Below, one piece after another: positions 31,055 to 46,605 of a DNA stretch of 64,000 nucleotides; position 1 is the first letter of the stretch, and each line of letters starts with the position of its first letter. The position numbers and the translations under genes were made by a program. This DNA comes from an uncultured Alphaproteobacteria bacterium (GTDB lineage: Bacteria; Pseudomonadota; Alphaproteobacteria; Paracaedibacterales; CAIULA01): positions 54,486-118,485 of the forward strand of contig CAIULA010000013.1 of assembly GCA_903899945.1 (NCBI GenBank), written 5' to 3'. Below the pieces are notes generated by a model, which saw only the letters and a list, made by a program, of their open reading frames with translations, was not told the origin of the DNA and ran no database searches.

Positions 31055-31359
31055 AAAGATTCCTTTTCTTAAAAATAATTTTGTTAATACTATACCTAAC
31101 GAGTCTTCATAGCACACTATGTGGGTAAAACAGAGAACAAAAACACCATTATTTTCCACTTTATCTGTAGCAAATTCTTGATATTTTTCAGAACTGTAAT
31201 AATCACCATCGGCAATCTGTGGTCAGTCCAGTTTACAGCACTACCGAACAAAGCCACCTTTTGGAAAGTGACATTCTTTAAATTCGATCTGCTTTAACTA
31301 CCTCATGAAATATATCGCGACAACTTATAACAAATTTCACTATTATTTGCGACAGAGCC
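31055..31359. other. Intergenic region at the left island boundary
   Basis: It contains the HU promoter region and, from about 31200 to 31255, a stretch that ends in the inverted repeat described separately. A short degenerate frame reading leftward from 31255 (ALFGSAVNWTDH...) looks like insertion-sequence debris, but no transposase family can be named. Confidence 0.4.
31244..31255 (-). repeat. Left copy of island-flanking inverted repeat (IS-end-like)
   Basis: CCGAACAAAGCC here is the exact reverse complement of GGCTTTGTTCGG at 46594-46605. Both copies point their GGC ends toward the island. Outside the 12 bases the similarity continues weakly (TAGTG versus CAATG). Confidence 0.6.
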
Positions 31360-32214
31360 TTACAATAAGTCAGCCGCCGAAGGCCATTTATGATGCCGCT
31401 TCAGATATTCAAATTGCCTCTCTGTCACAGCTTCATTTTCTGCGGTAAAGGTCTCTTCAAAACACGCATCCTGATAATGAACCGCTGTTATTTCCGAAAA
31501 TCCACATGTAAATTCATAAGTCGAAATTTCATCAACCCAGCTTTTTCTATCATCTATTACAAGAACACTACCCCATCTTGCCCCCAAAAACTTCACTAAA
31601 AGGTCCAAACATCTTGCCTTAGAACTCTTGGCGGTTAACATTACCCCCTGTTTAAAAACAGGATTTATCCCGTCAACACTTTCTTCAAATTTTACAGCCT
31701 CTTGAGGAAAATTACCCATATTCAAGTCGATACCTATTTTATTCAATTGCTCTATACGACAATCTTCCATTGATTCAAATATCCCAAAAGGACCAATTTT
31801 TCCTGCCGTTAAAGCAATAACATCGCAACCATTACCCCTGAGTTCTTGTATGATTCCTAATAAACGAGGATCGATCAATTCGCTTGTCAGACTTTGAATC
31901 ATTATGCTTTGCAAGTATTCGGCAAGAGGAATTAAGCGTGAACCAACGCTTATTGTTTGGCCATATAAAGATTCTTGCAACTTGGCGTAATGCCTTCTGT
32001 ATGCCTCTCTACCACAGGGATGTAACAATTTATCAGTGTACTTTAAGCTAACGTTATCCACATCAAGTACAACCAATGTGCCCGGTTTGGTTTTTTTTAG
32101 TATCCCTATAATTTGATCAAAGCGCGAAGCTTCAAGCACACAACTTGATCGACAAGGCACCACTAAACACTGAAAAAACAAACAAAATAAAATAACAACT
32201 TTTTTCATCATCAT
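31360..32214 (-). CDS. Exported DUF2608 family, HAD-like protein
   Basis: This 284-residue protein has a signal peptide (residues 4-23) and then LVVLDVDNVSLKYT with the DxD pair Asp51/Asp53 of HAD-type phosphohydrolases, VIALTAGKIGPFG (motif II region with Thr) and GSVLVIDDRKSWVDE (motif IV region with Asp-Asp). The overall pattern fits DUF2608, a family known mainly from Legionella-like intracellular bacteria. The substrate is unknown. It is the first gene inside the left repeat. Confidence 0.7.
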   Translation of the reverse strand: MMMKKVVILFCLFFQCLVVPCRSSCVLEASRFDQIIGILKKTKPGTLVVLDVDNVSLKYTDKLLHPCGREAYRRHYAKLQESLYGQTISVGSRLIPLAEYLQSIMIQSLTSELIDPRLLGIIQELRGNGCDVIALTAGKIGPFGIFESMEDCRIEQLNKIGIDLNMGNFPQEAVKFEESVDGINPVFKQGVMLTAKSSKARCLDLLVKFLGARWGSVLVIDDRKSWVDEISTYEFTCGFSEITAVHYQDACFEETFTAENEAVTERQFEYLKRHHKWPSAADLL

Positions 32215-32282
32215 ATTCCCAACTTTCCAACCGAAAATATCAAAATTATTATAAAGTAGAAATTGAAATAAGAAAATTTTTT

Positions 32283-33299
32283 CTATTTATAAAATTTAGA
32301 ATTAGAATTTACAGTTATGTTATTTGCAATTGCGTTTAATCTATCTACAGAAAAGAATTGAGGAGTATTATTAACCATCTGAACTGCATGTTGTCTAAAG
32401 TACAAAGTTGGGTATCCAAAAACATTAATTAATGGGGATCGAACAGTTCCTAGATCATATTGAGCTGCAAATTCAATGAGAGAATTTTCTATTCTTGGAT
32501 CGTTTATATGGCTTTGTTTACTTGAATCTTCAAAACAAGCCGCTTCATGTATTATCTTTTCGACCTTTTCAAGGGTTTCAGTAAGCGATAATGGATCAGT
32601 ATTGATATAAATAATTTTCCCCTTAAATAGTATAGGAAGCTCTTTAGAATAAAATTCTTTTAAAAAGCCTAGAAAGATTTCTTCTGACCATGGCCAACTG
32701 CTATCACTTCTTAAAGAATGAAGCCTCTTTAAACCTAACTCGGGAGAAACATCCATTACAATAATCAGGTCTAGCTTTTTATCTTTAAGATCTCTTTCAT
32801 AAAGTTTTTTTTGCAAAAGGTATAATTTCTTTCCATTCTTAGCTTTTTTATACCGTTCTTTATTATGCACGTCAGCCAGATACTTTTTATTCTCAAGAAA
32901 ATTATCGTACGCGTAAGAATAGGCAAGATTTGTAAAATATACCCTATGGAATATCACACACTTTGTATAAGGCGATAACTTTTCTACTGATTTCATACGA
33001 GAAACCCACCAGTCATGAAATCTCTGAGAAAGGATTGTTGCCGAAGATTTGGGTAAAGGTTTGCCAGGAACAGGGTGAAGAGAGGGTAAAACAAGGCATT
33101 GGTTACTTGATTTATTAAGCAAAGCGAAGATTATACTTGTCTTGCCAGCACCTGGCATACCTTCTATAGCAATCAGAGTACTAGGAGTTTCAGAAGGAAT
33201 TAAAATCTCAGCTTTTACGCAAGAGATTTTATTAGGAATTAAGAGTATTAATGCCACAAAAGGATAATATAAAAACATTTTTTGAAACTTTTCTTTCAT
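32283..33299 (-). CDS. Deoxynucleoside/thymidylate-kinase-like P-loop protein with an N-terminal membrane or export segment
   Basis: Residues 9-22 form a hydrophobic segment ahead of the domain, like a signal peptide or anchor. Walker A is GMPGAGKT at 47-54. FHRVYFTNLAYSYAY resembles the DR(Y)-x-S-x-x-AY motif of deoxynucleoside and thymidylate kinases, DLIIVMDVSPELGLKRL is the following strand-helix, and RSDSSWPW is a LID-like arginine loop. About 100 C-terminal residues are unassigned. A nucleotide kinase outside the cytosol is unusual; the substrate is not known. Confidence 0.6.
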   Translation of the reverse strand: MKEKFQKMFLYYPFVALILLIPNKISCVKAEILIPSETPSTLIAIEGMPGAGKTSIIFALLNKSSNQCLVLPSLHPVPGKPLPKSSATILSQRFHDWWVSRMKSVEKLSPYTKCVIFHRVYFTNLAYSYAYDNFLENKKYLADVHNKERYKKAKNGKKLYLLQKKLYERDLKDKKLDLIIVMDVSPELGLKRLHSLRSDSSWPWSEEIFLGFLKEFYSKELPILFKGKIIYINTDPLSLTETLEKVEKIIHEAACFEDSSKQSHINDPRIENSLIEFAAQYDLGTVRSPLINVFGYPTLYFRQHAVQMVNNTPQFFSVDRLNAIANNITVNSNSKFYK

Positions 33300-33353
33300 T
33301 TTGTTTCCTCTATTTTTATAGAATTTCTTCTAGGTTTAATTACATCATTATAA

Positions 33354-34121
33354 TTATAGATTATTTATATCTATTAGAGTATTTTCAAAAATTTCTTCGT
33401 TTATTTCTTGCAAAACATCTATAATTCTTTTAAGTTCCTTTCTGTCATTTTTTATTGTCTCCCACGATGCCTTGTATCCTTCTATGAGCTGGATATTTTT
33501 AAAAGGAATACTTGGAAAACATCTATACAATAAGTCTTGATCAATATCTTCCTCTAATAAGACTCCGGCTTTAATATAAATACAATTTTTAATAAGGTGA
33601 TTCGATCTCCTCATCAGGTGCTTAGCATAGGTTGCAATCGCATCTGTAGAATTCTCTAATTCCATATAACGATTGCGTAAGTCATGAATTAGATAACAGA
33701 CATTGGAAATTGTATCTAATCTAAGTTCACGTTCATCTACCTTATCTCCAAACTTAATTTCATTATTAAAGAGAGAAATAGACTGCTCAAGACCGTAATG
33801 CGAATAGAAAATCGGCTTCATACCGTGGTGATGCCTTTTTGAAAGAAAATCATTTCGTGAAACTAACGTTATGGTAATTTTTATAGGATATTTTCTTTTC
33901 AACAACTGATAAACATCTCTGACTTCTTTCAAAACAGAAGAATTAATTTTTTCAACGATAATAGATAAATCGATGTCGCTCCATCCCTTCCTAGGTTGCC
34001 TTAAACTTTTTCCTAGCCCCCCTCTAATTAATAAATCATGTAAATCAGAGATATTGCCTTTAGATAATCTTATAAAATCATTAATAGCCTCTGAAAATAA
34101 ATCTTCTTCTATCTTTTTCAT
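33354..34121 (-). CDS. Nucleotidyltransferase-domain protein
   Basis: This 255-residue protein has a nucleotidyltransferase core: RGGLGKSLRQPRKGWSDIDLS, in which the loop (residues 33-40) and the Asp49/Asp51 pair correspond to GS...DxD. A third strand with KITITLVSR follows. The C-terminal half is helical (AKHLMRRSNHLIKNCIYIKAG), like the helical domain of antibiotic nucleotidyltransferases or HEPN proteins. The substrate is unknown. It lies beside the kinase-like gene on the same strand. Confidence 0.6.
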   Translation of the reverse strand: MKKIEEDLFSEAINDFIRLSKGNISDLHDLLIRGGLGKSLRQPRKGWSDIDLSIIVEKINSSVLKEVRDVYQLLKRKYPIKITITLVSRNDFLSKRHHHGMKPIFYSHYGLEQSISLFNNEIKFGDKVDERELRLDTISNVCYLIHDLRNRYMELENSTDAIATYAKHLMRRSNHLIKNCIYIKAGVLLEEDIDQDLLYRCFPSIPFKNIQLIEGYKASWETIKNDRKELKRIIDVLQEINEEIFENTLIDINNL

Positions 34122-34271
34122 TCCCTAACAAAAATAAAAGCAACTAGTCCCACTATTTAATAGTAAGTTTTTTACCCTCCCAATAGGAGAAAATTGCGTC
34201 TATTTTCCATGTCAGCCTCTTAAAGTAATTCCTTTAAAATGCGAATAAAATCAAAATAATACTTGGATTTT

Positions 34272-35291
34272 ATGAAAAATTCGCGAGCCATACAGTTTAA
34301 CTTAATAAAAAAGTCTGTATTTAAAGTTTTAAGGGACTTTGATGTACCTAAAAGAATTGCTGCAGTAACAGCTGCTGTTATGATAGAAGGCGACTTACGT
34401 GGATACAAAAATCACGGTATTGAAAGAACATTTGAAATCATTAATGGCATTGAAAAGAAGACAATTAACCCATTAGCACAACATCTTGTACTTAAAGATT
34501 TTCAAGCTATTAAAATTATTGATGGACAATATGGCTTAGGTCACTTTTTTGCAAGACAAAGCATGAAAGAAGCTATAAAACGAGCAAAGCATTACGGTGT
34601 TGGTGTTTGTGCCAATATTAACTCAAGTCATATTGGTATTTTGTCTTATTACTCTGAACTTGCAAGTCATTCAGGATGCATAGGAATCACTATGTCTACG
34701 TCCTCTCCTTGCGTTGTTTTAGGTAAGTCAGGGAAGAAAATACTTGGAACTAATCCCATTTCTTTTTCACTTCCCTTTTATCCTTTTCATATAACAGGAG
34801 ATTTTTCCACTGCTATGATTAGCCGAGGAAAAATCTTAGAATATTTACAGAAAAATGATAAATTTGATAAATATTTCGGAATTGATAAAAATAATAAACC
34901 CACGAAAGATCCCCAATCTCTTCTAGAAGGGGGAATTTATAGTATGGATGGATCGATTAAAGGAACCTTACTTTCATTATTAATAAGTGTTTTATGTGGT
35001 CATTTGATTGGAGGAGACATCAATGCCAATGTAAAAGGAACAAGGTTTACAGATCATCATCCAAACAAAGGGGATTTTTTTATAGCTTTTGATATTTCTA
35101 AATTTACCTCACTTGACAAATTCTGGGACCAAACATTTGCATTAGCACAAATGATTGAGACGAGTGGTTCGGATTTTGGAATTCCCGGAAAAAGGTCATT
35201 TGCATGCAAACAGCACAATTTAGATAAAGGCTTAGTTATAAGCCAGAACATGCTTACATTATTCAAGAATCATAATATAAATTTCAGTTAA
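34272..35291 (+). CDS. Ldh2/ComC family NAD(P)-dependent 2-hydroxyacid dehydrogenase
   Basis: The 339-residue protein follows the malate/sulfolactate dehydrogenase family throughout: DLRGYKNHGIERT, NSSHIGILSYYSELA (catalytic His region), GTNPISFSLPF, DFSTAMISRGKI, NKPTKDPQSLLEGGIYSM and GSIKGTLLSLL. Family members reduce 2-oxoacids such as oxaloacetate or sulfopyruvate. Sulfopyruvate is an isosteric analogue of phosphonopyruvate, the product of the PEP mutase encoded 8 kb away, so phosphonopyruvate reduction is a plausible role. I use ATG at 34272; a TTG three codons earlier also exists. Confidence 0.85.
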   Translation: MKNSRAIQFNLIKKSVFKVLRDFDVPKRIAAVTAAVMIEGDLRGYKNHGIERTFEIINGIEKKTINPLAQHLVLKDFQAIKIIDGQYGLGHFFARQSMKEAIKRAKHYGVGVCANINSSHIGILSYYSELASHSGCIGITMSTSSPCVVLGKSGKKILGTNPISFSLPFYPFHITGDFSTAMISRGKILEYLQKNDKFDKYFGIDKNNKPTKDPQSLLEGGIYSMDGSIKGTLLSLLISVLCGHLIGGDINANVKGTRFTDHHPNKGDFFIAFDISKFTSLDKFWDQTFALAQMIETSGSDFGIPGKRSFACKQHNLDKGLVISQNMLTLFKNHNINFS

Positions 35292-35335
35292 CGACAAATG
35301 ACCCTAATAATACGTGATTGGGTTACTCTAATTTT

Positions 35336-36244
35336 CTATCTATCTTCAAGCCATTTCATAGACCAGCCATAAAGCTCTGCTTTATCATCTAAAATTAAAG
35401 GCACTTGATCGATTGGCGGACGATATGCAATATCCCCACTTTTGTATTCGCCAAAATCACCCAACAAACGCCTACGTCTTGGAGTCATTCTGTCAATAAT
35501 AGCAGACGAGTAATAAGAGTAATATTCTTTGAACCACATTTGAGCATATCGCAAAGAAATACTTATTCTAGTTTGATTTGAAAAGTTTGGAGCTACGGCA
35601 TGCCATAAATTTAAATGATGAAAAAGAATATCACCGGCTTTTAGTTTAACTTGGATTGCGTCGGGTGGCAAATCTCCCCTCTCTAGATAAGCATTGTATT
35701 GAGGAATAAAACAAAAGGGATGATGATATCCTACTTGTCTTAAATGGCTACCTGGAACAGCCCAAAAATTACTTTGATTCTCAGTTAACACATCTGTTAA
35801 GAAAAACTGAACTTTAAGCTGCAGGGGTAAATTACCAGGTAAAGGTAATATTCGCTGTAACGCAGGACCAGAATCTGTATGGAATTTTCCAATATTACCT
35901 AAATTATTGCGTGTTGGACGACGCACAAAGATATGACAGCCGTTCAACTGAATATAAGGTCCCATTAAATATCGAATAATATCAAATGATATAAAGTGAT
36001 CGATAAGAAAATCAAACACCTCAGAGTACTCTAAAGGATTATGAATATTATAATAATCTACTCCATGATTCTTTCGAGTATTTTTGTCATCTACTTTGTC
36101 TTTTTCATGATTTTTTATAATAGTATTTGCAGTTTGGAGCAGTGTCTGAATTTCTTTTTTAACTAAAACATCTTCGATAATTATATACCCATTCTCTTGA
36201 AGAAACCTAGACTGCTCTTGTGTAAGAGGAGAAGAATTTTTCAT
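35336..36244 (-). CDS. PhyH-family Fe(II)/2-oxoglutarate-dependent dioxygenase
   Basis: This 302-residue protein begins with LTQEQSRFLQENGYIIIEDVL, the PhyH N-terminal pattern. The iron triad is His122-x-Asp124 in KFHTDSG and His215 in NLWHAVAPN, and Arg226 in QTRISISLRY is placed to bind 2-oxoglutarate. SNFWAVPGSHL is the usual loop. Family members hydroxylate or desaturate small molecules and occur in phosphonate pathways. No substrate can be assigned from sequence. It is divergent from the SAM-dependent enzyme gene. Confidence 0.87.
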   Translation of the reverse strand: MKNSSPLTQEQSRFLQENGYIIIEDVLVKKEIQTLLQTANTIIKNHEKDKVDDKNTRKNHGVDYYNIHNPLEYSEVFDFLIDHFISFDIIRYLMGPYIQLNGCHIFVRRPTRNNLGNIGKFHTDSGPALQRILPLPGNLPLQLKVQFFLTDVLTENQSNFWAVPGSHLRQVGYHHPFCFIPQYNAYLERGDLPPDAIQVKLKAGDILFHHLNLWHAVAPNFSNQTRISISLRYAQMWFKEYYSYYSSAIIDRMTPRRRRLLGDFGEYKSGDIAYRPPIDQVPLILDDKAELYGWSMKWLEDR

Positions 36245-36371
36245 AAAAAACCGAATTTTTTAAATATTACTAACATTCGATTCCATAAAATAAGAGAGGG
36301 CATTTTTCTGAAACATTAAACTTGCAATTTGTGCTATTTATTCTGTTTATTTTGAGCGGAAAACTCATGTT

Positions 36372-37190
36372 ATGCAAAATGCAAAAATAGGAATATTTTT
36401 TATGGATCACTATTTAAAAAAAAGAAAAGTTGTCATTTTCACAGACTGTTATGATTTAGCTTTTAATGAAATAGCTCAAGTTATTTGGAATCATGTCTCT
36501 CCCTCATTAATAAATTCTATTCATATTGATCCCGTTGTCGCTATAAAAAAATTTTCAACCGTGAATGCTGCATTTGCTGTAAGGCTATTTGCTGAATTAT
36601 ATCCTTCTTCAACAATTTTTTTGGTCGTTATGAACAGCATGGACAACTCCCCCTCCCGCATTATAGTGGAAACAAATAATAATCTTATTCTTGTAGGAAA
36701 TAACTCTGGCTATTTTAATTGGTTGATTGAGGACATAGGACTTAAATCAGTTTATGAAAATTCAATGCAACGAGAAACAAACCCTCGATCTTTTGGAGGG
36801 AAATATGTCCAAGCTCCCACAGTCGCCTCAATCTTGAATGGTAAGACGCTTGATACGCTAGGCAACAAACGTAGCAAAGAAATATTAGCAGATTTCAAAA
36901 TACCAAATGGCACAGTCGTTCATTGTGATAATTTTGGTCTGATCAAAATAAAGGGAGAACCTCTGAATAACATCGACGAAGGTCAACGTATGCGAATATT
37001 AATTAATAATAAAATAGAAATTGAAGCTATTTTCTCTCATCAACTAAAGACTCATCTGGATGGAACATGGGTTCTTTTCCCTGGCAGTTCATTGTATGGC
37101 CTTCCAGAACTTGGAAAAGTAAGATGTCCAGACTCAGCGGAAAGTTTAAATGTAAAAGAAGGAGATTTCATAGTATGGGAAAAAGTTTAG
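36372..37190 (+). CDS. SAM hydroxide-adenosyltransferase/halogenase family protein with altered active site
   Basis: This 272-residue protein fits the DUF62 fold: VVIFTDCYD near the N-terminus, SIHIDPVVAIKKFSTVNAAFAVRLF, ELYPSSTIFLVVM, VGNNSGYFNWLIED and the C-terminal barrel ending KEGDFIVWEKV. SAM hydrolases use an Asp-Arg-His triad in DPGVG-x-x-R and TFHGRD. Here the first motif is NSMDNSPSR (88-96) and the second is SFGGKY (140-145). By alignment the Asp and His are gone and only Arg96 remains, as in fluorinase and chlorinase. It overlaps the HIT gene by 16 bases. Activity is unknown. Confidence 0.75.
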   Translation: MQNAKIGIFFMDHYLKKRKVVIFTDCYDLAFNEIAQVIWNHVSPSLINSIHIDPVVAIKKFSTVNAAFAVRLFAELYPSSTIFLVVMNSMDNSPSRIIVETNNNLILVGNNSGYFNWLIEDIGLKSVYENSMQRETNPRSFGGKYVQAPTVASILNGKTLDTLGNKRSKEILADFKIPNGTVVHCDNFGLIKIKGEPLNNIDEGQRMRILINNKIEIEAIFSHQLKTHLDGTWVLFPGSSLYGLPELGKVRCPDSAESLNVKEGDFIVWEKV

Positions 37191-37600
37191 AATACGAACG
37201 ATTTTTTTTAAAAGAATATACCCATTGGGTCCTTTTTTTACATCAAAACCAATGTTATCTGGGACGAATATACCTCTTAGCGAAACGCCATAATGCTCTT
37301 GATTTTTTTTTGATGACGGAAGAAGAAAAAAGTGAATTATTTTTACTAGGAAAAGTAGTGACGAAAGCACTTAGTAACCTTTTTCAGCCTGATATTTTTA
37401 ATGTCGCATCTTTAGGTAATATTTTTAACCATCTTCATGTACATATTATACCAAGATACAAAGAAAGCAGATATTTCGAAGGAATGCAATTTACTGATAA
37501 TAGATGGGGGAAAAATTACAGTCCTTATGACTATAATTTCAAAACCCCTGATCACATACTTAAAAATATACACCAAGCCCTATTAAATGTAATGCTCTAG
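37175..37600 (+). CDS. HIT (histidine triad) family protein
   Basis: ATG at 37175 is chosen for its AAGGAG site 9 bases upstream. The 141-residue protein has the triad HLHVHIIPR (His86, His88, His90), with His88 expected to be the catalytic nucleophile. HIT proteins cleave or transfer nucleotide phosphates such as AMP conjugates. It overlaps the SAM-family gene and converges on the large regulator gene with a 4-base overlap of stops. It could process a nucleotide-linked intermediate of the island pathway. Confidence 0.85.
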   Translation: MGKSLEYERFFLKEYTHWVLFLHQNQCYLGRIYLLAKRHNALDFFLMTEEEKSELFLLGKVVTKALSNLFQPDIFNVASLGNIFNHLHVHIIPRYKESRYFEGMQFTDNRWGKNYSPYDYNFKTPDHILKNIHQALLNVML

Positions 37601-40600
37601 TTTTTTGCTACATAATCAGCAACAAAAGGGTGAAAGGGACCATATATCTCAATAAAGATTTTCTTACTGTGTTGTAAATATCTTTCTGCAATAGAACTTA
37701 AACTACCTTCTTTATTTTTTATAGAATTAAAAATATTTTCTGCCTTTAACTTATTGAAACTTTTTTCATCAAGAAATACCTTACAAAAGGATTCCGAAGC
37801 TTTGAAAAATGACTCAAAATAAACAAAGCTCTCTTTAAAATTTTTTTGTTTATAATAAATAATCGACGCATTATAGATATTAATTAAATTTAATAAATCA
37901 ATTTGACTGTTACTTACTGTTTTCTCTGTTTGCAAAATATAATTGCAGTCTTCAATAGCTTGATCTAGATTGCCTCTACTAATTCTTGCTTCTGCCCTAA
38001 GAGTTCTTGCTTTTAAAGTTTTATGCTTTCCAATTAGTTTTTCAAATAACAAGATCGATTCGGTTAGATTATCTTCAGCTTTTTGAATTTCCCCTAGTCT
38101 TAACAAAGCTTCACCCATTCCTAGAAACATATAGGCTTTTAATAAGTCATGAGAAAAATTTTTCAAATCGTAAGTAATAATATTTTGCGCTTTCTTAAAC
38201 CCCTGTTCTATTGCTTGTTGATATTCCCCTAGCCTGCAATAGACTTGACCTGCTTTAATAAAATTCTGAGCAAGATTTTTAGAAACTTTATTATAAGTCT
38301 TGATATCATATTTTTTATTTGAAGAACTAAGATATGACTGAAAATCTGTCCATATTTGGAGAACATAAATAGCGTATTTTTTAGTTTCTTCCGCCTTATA
38401 TTTGTGTAGATATTGTTTACTGTAAAGAGAAGATAACTCAGAATAAATATCTGCTTCTGCCTCCACCTCTTCTATGTTGTGATTGTCAATTTTTCCAAGC
38501 TTATTTAATGCTGTTCTTAGTATTTGCTCAGCTGCCAGAAAATCACCCTTTTTACTATAAATATCGCCAATATTTATCAAGTTTTTTGATATCAGAACCT
38601 TTTTTTGGGGAACGGGCATATTCTCACTTAATTTAATACTTTCTTTTGCATAAGAAAGCGCTTTATTAAGCTCACCTAACTCTATTAGAATCATCCCTAA
38701 TTTTCTAAAAATATCTGCCAATAAAGGGCTGCTGAGTAATTGATTATATGCTGGATTTTCGAAAATTTGAGTATAGTACTTCTCGGCTAGAAATATGTTA
38801 TGCGTACATTTATAATGAATTCCGCCTAAAACTATTAACAATTCTAATTTGCTTTTGTCCTGCATTTCTTTTGGCAAATTTATTATTTGCAAATTCTTCA
38901 TTAAGGTTTCCAGATGAGGAATTAATGCTATACTTTCCTGACGATTTTCTTCTAAATAAGATCCATAGGACAACTTTATTACCTGAGTGATTTTAGAGAA
39001 AAAGTCCTTTTTCTCTTTTTCAGTTAATAGGTATACAAGTCGCATTAAACTCAAGATACGAGTACTACGATGCAAAGATAACACCATATTTTTATCGTCT
39101 TTTTTTGACGGGTCAGACACAATAAAGGAGTATCTTCTTAAAGCCCGGATTAAACTATCAACAACAGAACTTTCTTTACAAAACTCTAACAAATTTCTTG
39201 GTATATTATATTCATTTAAAAGACAGATAAAAAATGTCAGTTCTTTAAAATCTGGATGTTCTTCAATCAGCTTTTCTAATGATGTAGTTATAATTCCATA
39301 ACGAGTCTTTGTGTACTCTCCCACTGCTTTTAAAAGGCTTTCTTGAGTATGTTGGAAACTTTGTCCGTATTGGTTAACTCTTTCCAAATATTGCTTAAAA
39401 GTAATATTGCTATTTTTAATATAGTAAGCAGCAATAGCAACATCTAAAGGAAAAGGAGGTATATTAACCAAAAAACCCATTGTCTCTTCCCTTACTACCT
39501 GAGGCAATTTGTCCGGTTTGGTATCATAAAGAACTCGGCAAAAAAGGGATAAGGCTTCCTTTTTAGTTAATTCGCCCAAATGAATAATATTTTCCGAGTT
39601 TATAAAACTTGAATTCTGGATATTATTATCATTGCTTGTAATGATTACCTTACCTGTGCCCCAAATTTCTGGATCATTGGGAAAATAAATCTTTATATTG
39701 GAAAAGGCCTCAATTTCAATATTGTCATAGATCAGTAACCAATTCGGATGACTTTTTAATTGACGCATTATAAAACTCAAAAGTTGCTTTTCCCTTTCAC
39801 CGCTTTCCTGGATTTGCAAAATAAACGTTAATTCCTCTTTTAACTCTTTATTTTTTGCAAATGTATAGGCTAATTCTTTAAAAGAATTGATAAGAGTCTC
39901 TTTTGTTTCAGCATTAATCTCCCATGTAACAGAGGCTGGATGTGTCTTGGCGTAATAACGAGCAATAACAGTTTTTCCTGTGCCCCCGATTCCTGTTATA
40001 GCTATCGAAGAAATTCTTTCTTTATATTGCTTTTTATTTAATATCTTTTCTATTAACTGAACAATGTCAGATCTTTGAAGAAAAATATTTTCTTGTGGGA
40101 TGATTAAATGGGAACGGACAAGAATAGAGGGTTCTTTTTTTAAGAAAAAAATAAAACTAAGAAAAAGACTTAAAAGAACCACTCCACCTATTAAAAATAA
40201 CTGCGTAGAATGGTACCGCTTCTTTGCTTCTACTATAATTTTGCTTTCATTAAATTCTGAAATATCGCTTGAGGCCTGAATATGCTGCATAAATTCCGCA
40301 CTAAGACTTGCCGTATCAATTTCAGGTGACAAAATCTTTAAAATTTCAAAAATAGCGACATAGAAGTTGCTATAATCATTAAAATCTACAACTGTAATAT
40401 GATTTTCCCTAAGATTAATTTTATCTTTATACAATATAATTATGTTAATATCAGAAACATACGAAGATATATTTTTAATTGTTAAAGTACTATAATTATT
40501 GCATTCGCACAGTTGCTGTTCTTCATGGGAAAAGTAAGATAAAAGAATAAACTTATCAGGGTTCGACTCTATGTGCTCTTTGAGAGCTTCTTGGTTTTTG

Positions 40601-41070
40601 TTCTGGAAAACAGAAATCCTGACATCTGCAATAAGCAAATACCTTTCTATTTCTCTGGCAAAAATAGTCCATTCTTTAGCGTAGTTTCTAGTATTTATTC
40701 TGCTACTTAAAGGAAGAGATATAGAAGAAGAAAGAGAAAACTTTTTATAAAGAAAATTTTCAAAGGAAAAATAGATAAGTAAAATTGAATAGTATTTTCT
40801 TATTGAACAACGTTGCTGAGAATTTTCTACAAAATTTATAATATCTTCGCGACTATTGCCCTGAATTTTCTGCAAGATTTTACTTATATGTGCACTTGCC
40901 GTTTTAGGAGCAATTGATAAGAAAGACGAAAGAGTAGAGGATCTACCGCATGCGATACATGCAATAACATCCATCTCTCTAAAGGTAAACTCCTTATCTC
41001 TTATGGTTTTTAAGTAGGTTGAATAAAAATCGTAAGGATGAGATATAAAAAAGGATTCCGAGGAGAGCAT
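37597..41070 (-). CDS. LuxR-HTH / transmembrane / NB-ARC-like ATPase / TPR regulator
   Basis: This 1157-residue protein has four parts. Residues 27-70 are a LuxR/GerE HTH (FTFREMDVIACIACGR, then APKTASAHISKILQKI). Residues 291-310 are one strong membrane helix. An NB-ARC/STAND module follows: Walker A GIGGTGKT at 360-367, WLLIYDN as Walker B, GKVIITSND and PFPLDVAIA (the GLPL position). From about 700 to the end are TPR-like repeats (ALSYAKESIKLSE, QAIEQGFKKAQ, KAEDNLTESILLFEK). STAND proteins act as ligand-triggered switches. A helix between HTH and ATPase is hard to reconcile with a cytosolic ATPase unless it is not fully spanning. Confidence 0.75.
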   Translation of the reverse strand: MLSSESFFISHPYDFYSTYLKTIRDKEFTFREMDVIACIACGRSSTLSSFLSIAPKTASAHISKILQKIQGNSREDIINFVENSQQRCSIRKYYSILLIYFSFENFLYKKFSLSSSISLPLSSRINTRNYAKEWTIFAREIERYLLIADVRISVFQNKNQEALKEHIESNPDKFILLSYFSHEEQQLCECNNYSTLTIKNISSYVSDINIIILYKDKINLRENHITVVDFNDYSNFYVAIFEILKILSPEIDTASLSAEFMQHIQASSDISEFNESKIIVEAKKRYHSTQLFLIGGVVLLSLFLSFIFFLKKEPSILVRSHLIIPQENIFLQRSDIVQLIEKILNKKQYKERISSIAITGIGGTGKTVIARYYAKTHPASVTWEINAETKETLINSFKELAYTFAKNKELKEELTFILQIQESGEREKQLLSFIMRQLKSHPNWLLIYDNIEIEAFSNIKIYFPNDPEIWGTGKVIITSNDNNIQNSSFINSENIIHLGELTKKEALSLFCRVLYDTKPDKLPQVVREETMGFLVNIPPFPLDVAIAAYYIKNSNITFKQYLERVNQYGQSFQHTQESLLKAVGEYTKTRYGIITTSLEKLIEEHPDFKELTFFICLLNEYNIPRNLLEFCKESSVVDSLIRALRRYSFIVSDPSKKDDKNMVLSLHRSTRILSLMRLVYLLTEKEKKDFFSKITQVIKLSYGSYLEENRQESIALIPHLETLMKNLQIINLPKEMQDKSKLELLIVLGGIHYKCTHNIFLAEKYYTQIFENPAYNQLLSSPLLADIFRKLGMILIELGELNKALSYAKESIKLSENMPVPQKKVLISKNLINIGDIYSKKGDFLAAEQILRTALNKLGKIDNHNIEEVEAEADIYSELSSLYSKQYLHKYKAEETKKYAIYVLQIWTDFQSYLSSSNKKYDIKTYNKVSKNLAQNFIKAGQVYCRLGEYQQAIEQGFKKAQNIITYDLKNFSHDLLKAYMFLGMGEALLRLGEIQKAEDNLTESILLFEKLIGKHKTLKARTLRAEARISRGNLDQAIEDCNYILQTEKTVSNSQIDLLNLINIYNASIIYYKQKNFKESFVYFESFFKASESFCKVFLDEKSFNKLKAENIFNSIKNKEGSLSSIAERYLQHSKKIFIEIYGPFHPFVADYVAKN

Positions 41071-41368
41071 TTAGATTTCTATAGCAAAAACAAATATTTT
41101 CACGAAATAAACGTACATATACGTATAAGCAAGATAACATCATGAAAATATCAAAAACAAGCCCTCCATTCTTTTTCTTGGTAGAAAAAAAACTGATTTT
41201 CCCTTTTAACTAGCACTCACAGAGAAAAGATTTATGTAGTTTCCTTAGATTATTAAGTTGTTGAATTTAGAGGAAAAAAATTGCATAAGAAAATTAAGAA
41301 AAATTCCCCTTATTTTTCTTTTAATTTAATCTCATTATTCAAAAAAATTGATTTATCTGTAGCTGCCA
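41071..41368. other. A+T-rich divergent promoter region inside the island
   Basis: This spacer separates the big regulator from the kinase/phosphoesterase/PEP-mutase operon. It holds ACGTA-CATA-TACGT (41111-41124) followed by the overlapping palindrome ATACGTAT (41119-41126), 40-60 bases ahead of the regulator start, a possible operator. No gene is seen. Confidence 0.4.
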
Positions 41369-42058
41369 ATGAAATATCTGCTCATTTTCTGTTTTTTGTT
41401 TTTCATTAACAAAAATGCCTTACCGTGTGAAACATTGGGTGAAGATGGGACTAATGTGTATATACTTCTAGGTCCACCCGGATCAGGTAAAACAACTTTA
41501 TCTCACGTACTCGTAACTGAAAAAGGTTACGAAAGATTAAGCGCAGGCGATTCTCTACGAAGTGACTTAAAAGAAGGTCTTGCATTTGCCATACGGTATA
41601 GAGAACAAATAGAAACTGGATTGCCAGGAATTCCTCCAGATGAAATTCAGGAATATGTAAGAGAAAAATTAGAAAGATTATTAACCGAAGGAAAAAATAA
41701 GATAATATTAGATAATTTTCCAAGGATAGAGTCCCAGGCTATTTTTTTAAAAGAAGTTTTAGAAAGAAACGGATTGTGGCAGAAGACAAAAGCCCTTCTT
41801 CTTGATATCTCTGACGACATCGCCACAGAAAGAATGCTTAACAGAAGAGCATGCGCAAACTGTAATCTGGTTTACAACTTGAAATTTTGCCCTCCTAGAG
41901 ATTCTGCTATTTGCGATAAATGCGCCGGTGAATTGTTCCAGCGATCTTGTGACATAGAAATTAGTAATGTTACAAGACGTTTAGAAAATTTCCGAATGTG
42001 GTCTCCGAATATAATTAGTTTCTTTGGCAGTGAAGGAAAAATTGTTGATTTTAAATAA
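41369..42058 (+). CDS. Adenylate-kinase-family protein with signal peptide
   Basis: This 229-residue protein begins with a hydrophobic signal segment (residues 3-19), unlike cytosolic adenylate kinase. The kinase core has Walker A GPPGSGKT (35-42), LSAGDSLRSDL, ILDNFPR and a zinc LID with RACANC and CDKC cysteine pairs, followed by VTRRLENF. It would interconvert adenylates, or another NMP, outside the inner membrane if the segment is cleaved. It heads a three-gene unit with the 2H phosphoesterase (22-base gap) and PEP mutase (11-base gap). Confidence 0.82.
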   Translation: MKYLLIFCFLFFINKNALPCETLGEDGTNVYILLGPPGSGKTTLSHVLVTEKGYERLSAGDSLRSDLKEGLAFAIRYREQIETGLPGIPPDEIQEYVREKLERLLTEGKNKIILDNFPRIESQAIFLKEVLERNGLWQKTKALLLDISDDIATERMLNRRACANCNLVYNLKFCPPRDSAICDKCAGELFQRSCDIEISNVTRRLENFRMWSPNIISFFGSEGKIVDFK

Positions 42059-42080
42059 ATGTTGATTACTTTGGATAAGA

Positions 42081-42902
42081 ATGATGTATTTTTTAAAAGT
42101 ATTTTTTTTAGTATTCACATTTGGTATGTCCATTATATTCTCAGCTATAAAACAATTGGAAGCTTCCAATGAAATTTATGCTCCGTCGGGCAAATCCTAC
42201 TGCCCTACAGATAGGATTGATATTGGGTTCGTTCTTTTGCCTGACCCTCTTCAAGTTAGCTCTCTTCTAAGTTATAGGGATATGGTGCTGGAAAGATTAT
42301 CAGGCATTTCACCGAGAAAAGAGGAATCAACAAGAAAACCAATTAACGTACCTGTTGAGATGCCTCATATATCGTTAGGTCATTATGCTCTACTTGCCGA
42401 AGAATTGCCTATGTTACGAGAAATAATAAACAAAGTGGCTTTCGAATTTTCTGCATTAACAGAGCCTATGAGTGAGGTGCTTCATGCAACAGAATACAAT
42501 CTTTCCTTTGAATGTAAAAACCTAAGAGAAGCTGTTAATCCAGTAATTGTTGACCTTTATTTAAATTTAAGAGACAAATTCTTTAATGAAATTGTTACAA
42601 AACAACCGACAATAAGAGGATTACATCTTAAATATGTTTGCAAAGATAAGCCAACTGAATTTGAACTTTTAGAAAAATATTACCAAAACTGGAACACTCC
42701 AGAATATAACAGAATCTGCCCCCATTTTACACTTGTGTATAGTCATGTAGGCAGAGAAAACATCATATCAACTTTAAGTAAAATTAAAACACCACCTTCC
42801 TTGAGTGAAATAAGACTTACGCATCTTGGCTTAATTGCTATTGATCTTAATGGCAATCCATTGCCGGACGGTTTAATTCACGCAGTGCCATTAAAACAGT
42901 AA
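42081..42902 (+). CDS. Exported 2H phosphoesterase (2'-5' RNA ligase-like)
   Basis: The N-terminus has a hydrophobic export segment (residues 4-22). Two H-x-S/T motifs define the 2H fold: HISLGHY at 96-102 and HFTLVYS at 215-221. Enzymes of this class open 2',3'-cyclic phosphates, ADP-ribose cyclic phosphate or 2'-5' linkages. The spacing of about 119 residues is a little longer than usual. It lies between the exported kinase and PEP mutase genes. Confidence 0.75.
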   Translation: MMYFLKVFFLVFTFGMSIIFSAIKQLEASNEIYAPSGKSYCPTDRIDIGFVLLPDPLQVSSLLSYRDMVLERLSGISPRKEESTRKPINVPVEMPHISLGHYALLAEELPMLREIINKVAFEFSALTEPMSEVLHATEYNLSFECKNLREAVNPVIVDLYLNLRDKFFNEIVTKQPTIRGLHLKYVCKDKPTEFELLEKYYQNWNTPEYNRICPHFTLVYSHVGRENIISTLSKIKTPPSLSEIRLTHLGLIAIDLNGNPLPDGLIHAVPLKQ

Positions 42903-42913
42903 AGCTAGAGATC

Positions 42914-43804
42914 GTGATTAAAACAACAACAATTTTAAAAAATTTAATAAACTCTAAAAAACTTGAATTTTTCTTAGAAGCCCACAATGGAATAAGTGCC
43001 TCCATAGTACAAGAAGCAGGTTTCAGTGGAATATGGGCAAGTGGTCTTTCGATTGCAGCCTCTCTTGGAGTTCGTGATAGCAATGAAGCCAGTTGGACTC
43101 AAGTTCTTGAAATATTAGAATTTATGAGCGATTCTACTAGCATACCAATATTAGCTGATGCTGATTCCGGGTATGGTAATTTTAATAATGTCCGCCGTCT
43201 TGTAAAAAAACTGGAACAGCGTGGCATTGCAGGTATGTGTATTGAAGATAAAGAATTCCCTAAAAAAAATTCTTTTATCAATAGCGAATCTCAGTATTTA
43301 GTTTCAATAGATGAATTTGTTGGAAAAATACAAGCTGCTAAAGATACCCAAATAGATCCAGATTTTTGTGTGATAGCACGCACAGAAGCGATCATAACGA
43401 CTCAAAACATAGATGAAGCATTGCTTAGGTGCCAAGCCTATTATCATGCCGGAGCAGATGCCTTAGTGATACATTCTAAAAGACAAGATCCTTCAGATAT
43501 AATAACTTTTATGAAACAGTGGCATTACGACTGCCCGATAATAATTATACCAACGACATATATGGATACACCTACATCTTTATTTGAGAGTTTAAATATC
43601 AGCTTGGTTCTTTGGGCGAATCACATGTTAAGGGCAAGCGTTTACCAAATGAAAAAGATAGCAGCCTTAATTTTTGCTAACTCTTCTGTCTTAGAAGCTG
43701 ATAAGAAAATTGCTTCCTTAGAAGAAATTTTTCGGTTTCAAAAAGTACAAGAGCTAGAAGAGGCAGAAAAGATTTATCTCTCTCATCCATCCTATAAATG
43801 TTAA
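42914..43804 (+). CDS. Phosphoenolpyruvate phosphomutase
   Basis: This 296-residue protein belongs to the isocitrate lyase/PEP mutase superfamily. LEAHNGISASIVQEAGFSGIW, ILADADSGYGN (metal-binding Asp82/Asp84) and VIARTEA are present. The diagnostic motif EDK-x5-NS is exact (Glu111-Asp112-Lys113 to Asn119-Ser120, reading EDKEFPKKNS), which separates true PEP mutases from methylisocitrate lyases. The enzyme makes phosphonopyruvate, the entry to almost all biological C-P bonds, and needs a pulling step. No phosphonopyruvate decarboxylase gene is nearby. The start is GTG. Confidence 0.88.
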   Translation: MIKTTTILKNLINSKKLEFFLEAHNGISASIVQEAGFSGIWASGLSIAASLGVRDSNEASWTQVLEILEFMSDSTSIPILADADSGYGNFNNVRRLVKKLEQRGIAGMCIEDKEFPKKNSFINSESQYLVSIDEFVGKIQAAKDTQIDPDFCVIARTEAIITTQNIDEALLRCQAYYHAGADALVIHSKRQDPSDIITFMKQWHYDCPIIIIPTTYMDTPTSLFESLNISLVLWANHMLRASVYQMKKIAALIFANSSVLEADKKIASLEEIFRFQKVQELEEAEKIYLSHPSYKC

Positions 43805-43853
43805 TATTATTACGAAGCAAGATTAATAAAAGCAAGCACATTGACTAAGTGGA

Positions 43854-44189
43854 TTATCTCTGGGCTGGCTTTTCACTGAAATGAGTTTCATATTTATCTG
43901 CGACTTCTATCCAGTCCTCTGCCTTTTTAGAAGATGGTAACTTCTCTACTATATTAGGCCATATAGATGCGTACTTTTGATTTAACTCTAGCCAAATCTG
44001 CGCTCTTGGATCCGTATCAGGTAAAATCGCATTTGCTCTACATTCATTTACGCAAGCTCCACAATCTATACACTCTTCAGGATGAATAACTAGCATATTT
44101 TCTCCCTCATAAAAACAGTCAGCAACACATGCAGGAACGCAATCTGTAAATTTACATTTTATACATGCTTCCGTTACAACGTAAGTCAT
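43854..44189 (-). CDS. fdxA: 7Fe ferredoxin (FdxA type)
   Basis: This 111-residue protein has the 3Fe-4S/4Fe-4S pattern: [21 protein letters not shown] (shown only as a family landmark) and [12 protein letters not shown], then the helical C-terminal extension typical of alphaproteobacterial FdxA. It carries electrons at low potential. It lies opposite to its neighbours within the island and could serve the radical SAM or other oxidoreductase there, but it may simply be a general ferredoxin. Confidence 0.92.
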
Positions 44190-44375
44190 TTGTGCTCCTT
44201 ATTCATAAGTTTTAGCTTCTTTATTTGAGGTATATTGGTGCAAAATAAATATTTTGTCACTCATCTATAAGGTGAATTTTATTAGAAAATCTTCTTTTGG
44301 AAACTCAGCAGTCCATACTATAAAGAGTCAAATTGGTGCGGTTTTCGTGAAGTTTAGACGAAGGAAATAAAATTT

Positions 44376-44813
44376 ATGAATTTGCAACAATTGAAAATCA
44401 ACAAAGAAATCCACGTTTTAGCTCGAGCAGTAATTATCGATCAAGGAATGATACTACTTTCCCGAGCAAAGCAATTTACACCTGAGTTTTTTGTGCTGCC
44501 AGGAGGTCATATAGAACATGGAGAAAGTGCAAGGCAGGCACTTCAACGAGAACTATTAGAAGAATCAGGTTTTGAGTTCCAAGTTAAAAGGTTTGTTGGA
44601 TGTTTGGAATGCAGTTTTGATATGCAAAATATATGTCATTCGCATGAATATAATCTTATTTTTGAAGCAGAGTCTTTTACTGTTAGAGCTATGCACTCTC
44701 TACCTTCTGCAATTAAACTCGAATGGTTATCTTTTGAAAAACTTCCAGAAATTAATTTACAGCCAAAAAGTTTAAAAGATTGCTTAAAAGAATGGCTTAA
44801 AAGAATGGCTTAA
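44376..44813 (+). CDS. Nudix hydrolase
   Basis: This 145-residue protein has an exact Nudix box: G-x5-E-x7-RE-x2-EE-x-G from GGHIEHGESARQALQ through RELLEESGF. It also has ARAVIIDQGMILLSRAK and VLPGGH strands. Nudix enzymes hydrolyse nucleoside diphosphate-X compounds. The substrate is unknown; in this setting a nucleotide-conjugated intermediate is possible. Confidence 0.87.
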   Translation: MNLQQLKINKEIHVLARAVIIDQGMILLSRAKQFTPEFFVLPGGHIEHGESARQALQRELLEESGFEFQVKRFVGCLECSFDMQNICHSHEYNLIFEAESFTVRAMHSLPSAIKLEWLSFEKLPEINLQPKSLKDCLKEWLKRMA

Positions 44814-45002
44814 AAGTGATTTAAATCTCTCTTTTCAAAGCCAAATGTTATGCTAGAAAACCTCACATACAAAATAATTATGCAAAGAAAAATTACTATA
44901 TAGGTTGTATTTTTATCGTCTTTTTTTGTTTAAAAATTCTCTACCCTTTAAGCCAGCAAGTAATACCGATAAACGAAATTGTGTTAAAAAAGGAAGAAAC
45001 AC

Positions 45003-46583
45003 ATGAAGATAGGTTTAATAAGCCCTAATGATAAAGGATCATATCGTAACGCCAATTTTTTAACAGAAAATTTAGGAATAGGTTACCTTTGCGCGTATCT
45101 AGAAGAACGAGGTCATGAGGTTATTATGTGTGATGCTCGTTTTAATGATTTTTCCCCTCAAACTGCAGTCAAAGAAATGGGATCTAAATCGCTTGATATT
45201 TTAGGTTTTTCAATCTGGACTGGTGAAGGTGCCGAATGGTGCAAGCAATTTCTAAGTCATTTTATAAGGAAACAAAAAAATATTCGTATTGTTCTTGGTG
45301 GATATTTTCCAACATTACAACCAGAAAGAAGCTTTGAAATTCTTCCTCATGCAGATGTTATTGTGATGGGTGAAGGAGAAGAGATTTTGTGTAACCTTGT
45401 GAGTGCTTTTGAGAAGCAAAAAGAATGGAAGGATCTTCATGGTATTGCATACTTTAGTTCTAAGGAGAAAAAGGTAATTACGAATGCCCGCGCAAAATTA
45501 CTTGAAGATTTAGATGAGCTTCCTTGGCCTAAACGATATTTAACTGAAAAAATGGGGGAATACGACGAAGTCTATCTTGAAGGCAGCAGAGGATGTGTCT
45601 TTTGCTGCACTTTTTGCGCTATAAGGCCTTTTGTAGGGATAGGTGCTGGATCTGCCTGGCGACATAGATCCGCCGCTGACATAGTAAACGAAATAAAATA
45701 TTTAAGGCAACAAAATCCTACTTTAAAAACTTTCCGTTTTATTGATTCAGATTTTATTGGTCCTGCAGAGCATGCAAGAGCAGAAGAGTTTGCACTCTTA
45801 GCAAAACAAGAATTACCAGGGATCAAATTCCATGCTGAAGGACGGGCTGTTTCAATCGCAAAAAGTAAATGTTTGCTAGAAAAACTCAAAGAAGCAGGCT
45901 TGTATAGAGTTTACCTTGGGGTTGAGTCAGGGAGTCAAAGAATCTTAAATAAAATGAACAAACAGACAACGGTACAAGAAAATAAAGACGCAATAGCAGT
46001 TCTAAAAAAATTAGGAATAGACTGTACCTATGGTTTTATCATGTTCACTCCCTGGACCATGGAGGAAGATATAGAAGAAAATGTAAAATTTTTAACAGAA
46101 GTAGGCAATATTCAAATGAACAAATTCTTTACCGAATTATTGCTCATTCCTAATACTGCGGCGTACAAAATGGCTCGAAGTGATTTTACTATTTCGCTTA
46201 AAGAAAATGACACTACGTATTATACATATCCCAGCTTAACAACGTCTGTAGCAAGAATCAGGGAAATAGGTAATATTTTAGAAAAGAAGAGAGCGGATTT
46301 CATGAACAAACTTTGGTTTATTCATAGGGGTATTCGCAATGCTCATAGACGTAACCTTATTGAAACGACATCATATGAAGTAGGTTCTAATAGCTTATTT
46401 CTGAACATTTTTGATTTCTGTTGGAAGCAAGCTAAGGAAAATACCTTACCTGAAATAGAGATTGTAAATACCTGCATAGAAAACTTTACTCCTCAGATTA
46501 CAAGTTTTCTAAATACATTAGCTGAAAAAAACCTTCTTAAGGTTAGTTCGTTTACTGATGAGTTTCAATATAATGTATCCTAG
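45003..46583 (+). CDS. Cobalamin-binding-domain radical SAM enzyme
   Basis: This 526-residue protein has an N-terminal B12-binding-like Rossmann domain (KIGLISPND, LGIGYLCAYLEERGHEV, IVLGGYFPTLQPE, VIVMGEGEE). The radical SAM cluster follows, C-x3-C-x2-C at 198, 202 and 205 (GCVFCCTFC). SGSQRILNKMNKQT and YGFIMFTPW are typical of this class. The usual DxHxxG cobalamin motif is not evident. Relatives methylate unactivated carbon or phosphorus centres, including in phosphonate antibiotics, or rearrange substrates. It is the last gene before the right repeat. Confidence 0.87.
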   Translation: MKIGLISPNDKGSYRNANFLTENLGIGYLCAYLEERGHEVIMCDARFNDFSPQTAVKEMGSKSLDILGFSIWTGEGAEWCKQFLSHFIRKQKNIRIVLGGYFPTLQPERSFEILPHADVIVMGEGEEILCNLVSAFEKQKEWKDLHGIAYFSSKEKKVITNARAKLLEDLDELPWPKRYLTEKMGEYDEVYLEGSRGCVFCCTFCAIRPFVGIGAGSAWRHRSAADIVNEIKYLRQQNPTLKTFRFIDSDFIGPAEHARAEEFALLAKQELPGIKFHAEGRAVSIAKSKCLLEKLKEAGLYRVYLGVESGSQRILNKMNKQTTVQENKDAIAVLKKLGIDCTYGFIMFTPWTMEEDIEENVKFLTEVGNIQMNKFFTELLLIPNTAAYKMARSDFTISLKENDTTYYTYPSLTTSVARIREIGNILEKKRADFMNKLWFIHRGIRNAHRRNLIETTSYEVGSNSLFLNIFDFCWKQAKENTLPEIEIVNTCIENFTPQITSFLNTLAEKNLLKVSSFTDEFQYNVS

Positions 46584-46593
46584 GAGTCTGAAC

Positions 46594-46605
46594 GGCTTTG
46601 TTCGG
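46594..46605 (+). repeat. Right copy of island-flanking inverted repeat (IS-end-like)
   Basis: GGCTTTGTTCGG begins 10 bases after the radical SAM gene stop and is the exact inverse of the copy at 31244-31255. Confidence 0.6.

Follow-up and report, generated by a model that had tools for sequence, protein, structure and literature searches.

Phosphonate gene clusters are a rich source of both antibiotics and herbicides; to our knowledge, nearly all clusters that have been worked out come from free-living bacteria. Fom2 is the decarboxylase of the fosfomycin pathway. In this pathway of Streptomyces (Fom1-Fom2-FomC-Fom3-FomD-Fom4), Fom3 methylates a phosphonate tagged with cytidine monophosphate (CMP) and FomD removes the CMP (PMC8158854). 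The equilibrium of phosphoenolpyruvate (PEP) mutase lies far toward PEP and is reported to be drawn forward by decarboxylation, amination, reduction or, less commonly, condensation with acetyl-CoA; reduction of phosphonopyruvate to phosphonolactate is a known fate (PMC12871164). In sponge Chlamydiae, PEP mutase (PepM) was reported and two clusters in metagenome-assembled genomes (MAGs) were likened to fosfomycin clusters by PepM similarity (PMC9666466), so a capacity for phosphonates in obligate intracellular bacteria has, as such, a precedent. Here we describe an island around a PEP mutase gene (31244..46605, between amidase and rpoD) in a 64-kb window, the whole stretch of DNA analysed, taken from contig 13 (bases 54486-118485) of a 1.69-Mb, 91% complete assembly (G000). 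The source bacterium is related to amoeba endosymbionts, and the cluster is largely common with Candidatus Odyssella.

We lean toward reading the core of the island as a conserved, decarboxylase-free cluster whose natural product is a phosphonate. In this reading, PEP mutase would form phosphonopyruvate, an Ldh2-family dehydrogenase would reduce it to phosphonolactate, and the other core enzymes would tailor a nucleotide-linked intermediate. Like the fosfomycin pathway, the island combines PEP mutase, a B12 radical S-adenosylmethionine (SAM) step, a predicted nucleotide-tagged phosphonate and tag removal, and the window version of the cluster includes an iron oxygenase. Unlike that pathway (PMC8158854), the island has Ldh2, no decarboxylase that we could find, an ANT-type nucleotidyltransferase (NTase) as a separate gene, and extra SAM_HAT, HIT, Nudix and adenylate kinase genes. 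With phosphonolactate-forming clusters it would share the withdrawal of phosphonopyruvate by a 2-hydroxyacid dehydrogenase (PMC12871164); the island enzyme differs in being of the Ldh2/sulfolactate type. The sponge Chlamydiae resemble the source bacterium in that PepM occurs in obligate intracellular bacteria, and matches to the island SAM_HAT protein include Chlamydiia and Chlamydiales. The available passages of that account (PMC9666466) name no SAM_HAT, ANT or HIT gene.

As far as our literature searches show, the decarboxylase-free gene set and its recurrence are new. Nothing was found that joins 'phosphonopyruvate' with 'sulfolactate dehydrogenase', a search for phosphonate with Odyssella found a soil metagenome study alone, and the Holosporales papers among those listed, a review included, showed no occurrence of 'phosphonate' or 'phosphoenolpyruvate mutase', which is not proof of absence from print. 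The cluster offers a short gene list for new phosphonate chemistry, with two families without assigned activity (a SAM_HAT protein lacking the catalytic triad and a very rare ANT-like NTase) and an Ldh2 that apparently replaces the decarboxylase, and it may point to a small molecule that symbionts use inside host cells.

PEP mutase and the search for a decarboxylase

The predicted committed step to phosphonopyruvate is assigned to the PEP mutase (42914..43804, + strand), a member of the conserved core and the sole PEP_mutase Pfam match in its own assembly (E ≤ 0.001). A preliminary description of the island had ascribed a true PEP mutase signature to it and had noted the absence of phosphonopyruvate decarboxylase; the first statement was borne out, and the second agrees with the search below. 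The protein scored 357.4 bits against the TIGR02320 equivalog cut-off of 319.55, its best solved relative was the PEP mutase 1m1b (E 3e-113), and its translation contained the EDK-x5-NS stretch, read as EDKEFPKKNS, a motif that distinguishes PEP mutase from its isocitrate-lyase kin. A phosphonopyruvate hydrolase identity (221 bits vs a cut-off of 374) and an isocitrate-lyase-type identity (135 bits vs a cut-off of 354 for the methylisocitrate lyase model) were rejected. With the decarboxylase of a relative in the same family (G020) as the query, which matched G020 itself, no match at E ≤ 0.001 was found in the 91% complete source genome or in Odyssella.

In G020 the decarboxylase gene lies directly downstream of PEP mutase, and PEP mutase is thus not exclusive to the island pathway. 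The same arrangement, with a decarboxylase no more than about 1 kb downstream, was seen in nine of the ten other named loci fetched (L008-L017), the copy in L009 being cut by the contig end; the contig of L017 stops within PEP mutase. None of these ten loci contained an island gene besides PEP mutase at E ≤ 1e-3. The G020 locus (L019, contig C240, 6539-14602) is a second, decarboxylase-type phosphonate locus in the family and encodes a small LuxR protein, a 1180-amino-acid (aa) LuxR/NB-ARC/TPR regulator, PEP mutase, phosphonopyruvate decarboxylase and an AMP-binding (adenylation) enzyme.

Conservation in Odyssella and in the order

The nearest named relative with the genes was Candidatus Odyssella thessalonicensis (G032, locus L018), placed by NCBI in Holosporales, Candidatus Paracaedibacteraceae, and belonging to another family within the order. 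By tblastn, eight of the island proteins had homologues there, all on one strand, in open reading frames (ORFs) spanning 8.1 kb. Identities were 68% for PEP mutase, 60% for the B12 radical SAM enzyme, 48% for Ldh2, 45% for SAM_HAT, 43% for HIT (from residue 36 on), 37% for NTase, 30% for the adenylate kinase (residues 1-227) and 23% for a DUF2608 protein. Six of the ORFs, from PEP mutase to NTase, had called spacings of 2, -16, 21, -76 and 18 nt, where -76 reflects an uncertain GTG start, and likely form an operon. The Odyssella contig also carries TniQ, an rve integrase and two resolvases, consistent with mobility. Beside the Odyssella cluster (L018:9103-11703) lies a gene for a PPDK_N/PEP-utilizer protein of 866 aa whose start is signal-peptide-like, which is odd for an enzyme type that forms PEP.

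The preliminary description had proposed a search for the same gene set in relatives and had held that the pathway would fall if PEP mutase never occurred there with the other genes; in Odyssella it does, with eight homologues in all. The core genes very likely belong to one pathway. The headline, that the block is an accessory island for a phosphonate-type pathway not described before, is supported. The listed set as a unit fared less well: its core was conserved, PhyH, the ferredoxin and the NB-ARC regulator lacked a counterpart on the Odyssella contig, and Nudix was matched by domain only.

Across 42 genomes of the order, a clear PEP mutase (58-100% identity) was present in three, namely the source genome, G020 and Odyssella; G019 and G025 gave matches of 23-25% only. 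SAM_HAT was confined to two of the 42, the source genome and Odyssella, and the B12 radical SAM enzyme (E ≤ 1e-20) occurred in the same two. The TMK-like, 273-aa, Nudix, HIT, Ldh2, adenylate kinase and NTase genes were sought in the fetched loci rather than order-wide.

Other genes of the island were generic or specific to the window. The DUF2608 protein (31360..32214, - strand; PF11019, 73.9 bits; signal-peptide-like N-terminus) is encoded in both clusters, and was rejected as a pathway marker because the family is generic (32/42 genomes; a single copy was found in the source genome). The LuxR-helix-turn-helix (HTH)/NB-ARC/TPR protein (37597..41070, - strand), recognized by its Pfam domains, is a candidate cluster regulator. 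Its family was found in 26/42 genomes, often in several copies, with five matches in the source genome. Its best match outside that genome (L019:7342-10884) adjoins PEP mutase in G020. Because the family is so widespread, a phosphonate-specific regulator was rejected, this one neighbour being the link. Just right of the island block, a small LuxR-type HTH protein (LuxR109; 47054..47383, + strand) shares 62% identity over 100 residues with L019:6539-6895, a gene beside the same G020 regulator. The PhyH-type iron/2-oxoglutarate dioxygenase (35336..36244, - strand; PF05721, 65 bits; iron-ligand residues recognized by eye) is not conserved and was found in 1/42 genomes, its own. Absent from the Odyssella cluster were also a P-loop thymidylate-kinase-like (TMK-like) protein (32283..33299, - strand; below Pfam cut-offs) and a 273-aa protein (42081..42902, + strand), both with signal-peptide-like N-termini. 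The latter matched PF13563 (E 0.15) and PF18523 (E 0.02) below threshold and no family above it, and contains two H-x-[ST] motifs that appear 2H phosphoesterase-like by eye. PhyH and the TMK-like and 273-aa proteins, like the NB-ARC regulator, are at most candidate members of the pathway.

Proposed pathway

After conversion of PEP to phosphonopyruvate by PEP mutase, the conserved Ldh2-family dehydrogenase (34263..35291, + strand, with a TTG start or ATG at 34272; PF02615, 257.6 bits) is the predicted phosphonopyruvate reductase. Its best solved relative, found with a two-row profile, is the L-sulfolactate dehydrogenase 2x06 (E 7e-75), and sulfopyruvate is the sulfonate analogue of phosphonopyruvate. 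Because no decarboxylase was found and the nearest solved relative is an L-sulfolactate dehydrogenase, reduction to phosphonolactate is the simplest reading; it would likely pull the reversible PEP mutase step forward.

The NTase (33354..34121, - strand), a conserved core member of a rare family, would then attach a nucleotide, probably adenosine monophosphate (AMP). It scored below every Pfam cut-off and its profile had no convincing sequence relative in the PDB; its predicted fold is ANT/AadA-like, a nucleotidyltransferase plus a helical domain. The carboxylates of polymerase-beta-type enzymes comprise GG...D-x-D plus a third acid, and D49 and D51 were nearly invariant in the NTase family, being absent in P0246.

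The conserved B12-binding radical SAM enzyme (45003..46583, + strand; PF02310, 64.9 bits; PF04055, 74.1 bits) may methylate or rearrange the tagged compound. Its CX3CX2C cysteines C198, C202 and C205 are invariant between the window and Odyssella, and the best of two PDB matches to its profile is OxsB (E 4.7e-29), which acts on a nucleotide substrate. It did not qualify as a PhpK-type P-methyltransferase (TIGR04479, 85.5 vs 600 bits), and of the 141 plasmid records that a search returned, none reached 60% or extended over 80% of the query. The action of Fom3 on a nucleotidylated phosphonate is a precedent for this step. The FdxA-type ferredoxin of the island (43854..44189, - strand; PF11953/PF00037) is an extra copy, with two in the source genome vs one in each of six relatives searched, and could plausibly serve as the electron donor to the radical SAM enzyme.

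The HIT-family protein (37067..37600, + strand; PF01230, 36 bits; conserved core) and the Nudix hydrolase (44376..44813, + strand; PF00293, 57 bits) would remove or exchange the tag, in parallel to the Fom1/Fom3/FomD steps of fosfomycin. By alignment to Odyssella, HIT probably starts at 37175, 16 nt within the SAM_HAT gene. Nudix is tied to the set by domain family only, through the C-terminal Nudix domain fused to the Odyssella NTase (L018:79-1245).

The adenylate-kinase-like protein (41369..42058, + strand; PF00406, 74 bits, plus ADK_lid), overlooked in the preliminary description, also belongs to the conserved core. Strongly hydrophobic N-termini were found in DUF2608, TMK-like, adenylate-kinase-like and 273-aa proteins (best mean Kyte-Doolittle value 2.35-2.85 over 12 residues), and the remaining proteins from NTase through LuxR109 did not exceed 1.73. 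This screen is crude, as the flanking HU as called (start probably too early) reached 2.27 and the Odyssella SAM_HAT 2.06. The Odyssella adenylate-kinase-like and DUF2608 N-termini gave 2.55 and 2.88, and the island adenylate-kinase-like translation has no second Met before the P-loop. The signal-peptide-like N-termini of the adenylate-kinase-like and DUF2608 proteins raise the possibility of a late step outside the cytoplasm. If the TMK-like (32283-33299) and adenylate-kinase-like (41369-42058) proteins are exported nucleotide kinases, they would be sensible only where adenosine triphosphate is present, such as in the host cytosol.

Several points weigh against this pathway. The steps after PEP mutase were deduced from family membership. 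Gene order and strand differ between the window and Odyssella, and PhyH, ferredoxin, NB-ARC, TMK-like, 273-aa and a separate Nudix had no tblastn counterpart on the Odyssella contig (E ≤ 1e-4). A decarboxylase could be missed in an assembly that is 91% complete, and among the other known fates of phosphonopyruvate (decarboxylation, amination by an aminotransferase, homocitrate-synthase-like condensation) the search covered decarboxylation. Ldh2 scored 252.7 bits vs the cut-off of 500 for the L-sulfolactate dehydrogenase equivalog NF040650 and may have another substrate, and the radical SAM enzyme fell below the cut-off of every one of the 25 NCBIfam models listed. The third catalytic acid of the NTase was not identified, its ANT-like fold differs from that of the phosphonate cytidylyltransferases known to us, and it could instead be a self-resistance enzyme. 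Finally, co-location beyond Odyssella was deduced from contig sizes.

The SAM_HAT-fold protein

The conserved SAM_HAT/fluorinase-fold protein (36372..37190, + strand) carries a PF01887 domain (SAM_HAT_N, 42.0 vs a cut-off of 26.3 bits) and has the same fold as SalL and fluorinase. The catalytic triad of SAM hydroxide adenosyltransferase is Asp68-Arg75-His127 (PMC4859513). In a profile alignment to 2zbu, Asn88, Pro94 and Gly142 occupy the positions equated with this triad by spacing (D, R at +7, FHG-His), and Arg96 lies two residues from the aligned triad-Arg position. As the triad is not conserved, ordinary SAM hydrolysis was rejected, and the protein differs in this from the SAM hydroxide adenosyltransferase/SalL/fluorinase superfamily (PF01887), forming a separate family. 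It would react SAM with a nucleophile that is not activated water. FGG was invariant in 34/34 rows and R71, K144 and K192 in 25/25 rows, with R71 and K144 in at least 90% of the 34-row set, and the D186-x-F-G stretch is kept. The comparison with the halide-site pair (T80-S158 or Y70-G131) covered its second position, where, judged by eye, the Gly-Gly after Phe falls; hydrolases carry His-Gly there. The Asn of the IDxxFGN motif is replaced in the family by Leu, Ile, Val or Pro.

Distribution beyond the order

SAM_HAT was found in 1/385 genomes of a class sample, its own, and in 3/398 of a phylum sample, two of these being partial matches (E 3e-7 and 9e-10). No match was found in plasmids, and two scans of IMG/VR yielded none that was confirmed. 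With a two-row profile, 280 proteins matched at E ≤ 1e-10; comparisons and a tree were based on the best 120 of these, and for PEP mutase on the best 120 of 5722. Source names among the SAM_HAT matches listed were Odyssella, Chlamydiia, Chlamydiales, unidentified bacterial endosymbiont, Caedibacter 37-49, Micrarchaeota, Marsarchaeota and Moraniibacteriota. The NTase profile matched 12 proteins at E ≤ 1e-6, the window and Odyssella included.

Co-location was assessed from identical longest-contig sizes of the hits. The PEP mutase and SAM_HAT lists share eight exact contig sizes, all >9 kb and one being Odyssella, compared with a mean of 0.06 and a maximum of 2 in 20,000 jittered draws (46 vs 58 sizes >9 kb). 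Seven of the 11 NTase hits outside the window match the contig size of a SAM_HAT hit and four match the PEP mutase list, with Odyssella counted in both. One NTase-SAM_HAT pair was named Chlamydiales, and no PEP mutase on the list was linked to it. These matches are indirect evidence for additional contigs on which SAM_HAT accompanies PEP mutase or NTase.

A quick tree of 130 PEP mutase rows placed the eight SAM_HAT-linked proteins and the window protein in one 12-row set (SH-aLRT 99), whose other three rows belong to contigs no longer than 2.7 kb. In the SAM_HAT tree (120 rows), a deep 66-row clade with Micrarchaeota, Marsarchaeota and Moraniibacteriota was set apart (100/100), and all PepM- or NTase-linked rows fell outside it; the remaining rows there may have a PEP mutase too. 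The members of the 66-row clade (e.g. P0180, P0192 and P0203) are triad-less and mostly carry FGGK..H instead of FGGK..Q.

Alternative interpretations

Instead of tailoring a phosphonate tagged by the NTase, the core could make an AMP analogue, with SAM_HAT placing 5'-deoxyadenosyl on a phosphonate and the kinase, HIT, Nudix and OxsB-like radical SAM enzyme processing the product. This is possible but unlikely. Several nucleotide-handling families stand within one core, and SAM_HAT has lost the hydrolase triad while retaining D186-x-F-G and an N-terminal Asp25, which on visual comparison matches Asp16, the ribose-binding residue of fluorinase. The invariant basic residues R71, K144 and K192, which may lie in the site, also favour it. 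The resemblance to OxsB, the nearest solved relative of the radical SAM enzyme, is tempered by its being one of just two PDB matches, and we know of no enzyme of the SAM_HAT fold with a phosphonate nucleophile.

A bolder version, which we hold to be improbable, is that the triad-less fluorinase-fold enzyme uses a phosphonate nucleophile on SAM, that the phosphonate undergoes B12 radical SAM chemistry while attached to an adenosyl tag derived from SAM and not from a nucleoside triphosphate, and that the nucleotide-mimic product is shared through gene transfer by unrelated intracellular symbionts (Holosporales kin, Chlamydiales) against protist hosts or rival symbionts.

It is similarly doubtful that the island serves ordinary surface modification of lipid or glycan, with the later genes of the route elsewhere. 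Such decoration is a common fate of PEP mutase products, and the G020 contig with PEP mutase and decarboxylase has a glycosyltransferase about 9 kb away. Against this, the decarboxylase was not found in the source genome, and the genes conserved beside PEP mutase encode radical SAM, SAM_HAT and NTase proteins rather than lipid or glycan transferases.

SAM_HAT might also be a chlorinase-like halogenase that feeds a halogenated sugar or nucleoside while the core makes a phosphonate, which we regard as quite improbable. The fold is shared with SalL and fluorinase, and the Gly-Gly after Phe recalls, in a correspondence made by eye, the G131 that SalL uses at its halide site (PMC4859513). The replaced Asn of IDxxFGN speaks against halogenation, as does the lack of a 5'-haloadenosine phosphorylase among the Pfam matches of the block.

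Setting and composition of the island

All gene classes named in the preliminary description were recovered in their places by Pfam/NCBIfam, the NTase by predicted fold; Ldh2, PhyH, HIT, Nudix, B12-binding, radical SAM, ferredoxin, LuxR/NB-ARC/TPR and SAM_HAT_N domains exceeded Pfam cut-offs. The proposed comparison with the flanks showed a lower GC content in the island, 33.1% vs 38.8% in the remainder of the window, where overlapping stretches of 15.4 kb (179 in all) had 38.5-39.4%. GC at third codon positions (GC3) was 0.19-0.29 across 14 genes, from the TMK-like gene through LuxR109, and 0.285-0.382 in seven measured flanking genes, of which HU (0.285) and DnaG (0.287) overlap the island range; DUF2608 was flank-like with 0.32.

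That the island consists of unrelated insertions of different age at a variable amidase-rpoD site is highly improbable, since the eight homologues together in Odyssella, the recurrent shared contig sizes and the mostly low GC3 (HU and DnaG also in range) outweigh the different gene content of a congener (G018) at this site, the flank-like GC3 of DUF2608, the differing gene order and the lack of Odyssella counterparts for PhyH, NB-ARC, TMK-like, ferredoxin and 273-aa. For the non-conserved genes such an origin may apply; for the core it is opposed by Odyssella.

No pair of direct repeats around the island was acceptable as attachment sites, and promoter-like sites showed no excess (59 vs 67.7 in shuffles). 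Anti-phage defence was rejected as a function, as seven island proteins searched against PADLOC gave a single partial match (radical SAM enzyme, E 2e-12). The congener G018 lacks the island, and its rpoD-amidase gap measures 2.7 kb vs 17 kb in the window. The site is thus variable; in G018 (L035:8273-10986) it encodes a 439-aa protein without a Pfam match and a LuxR protein with an autoinducer-binding domain.

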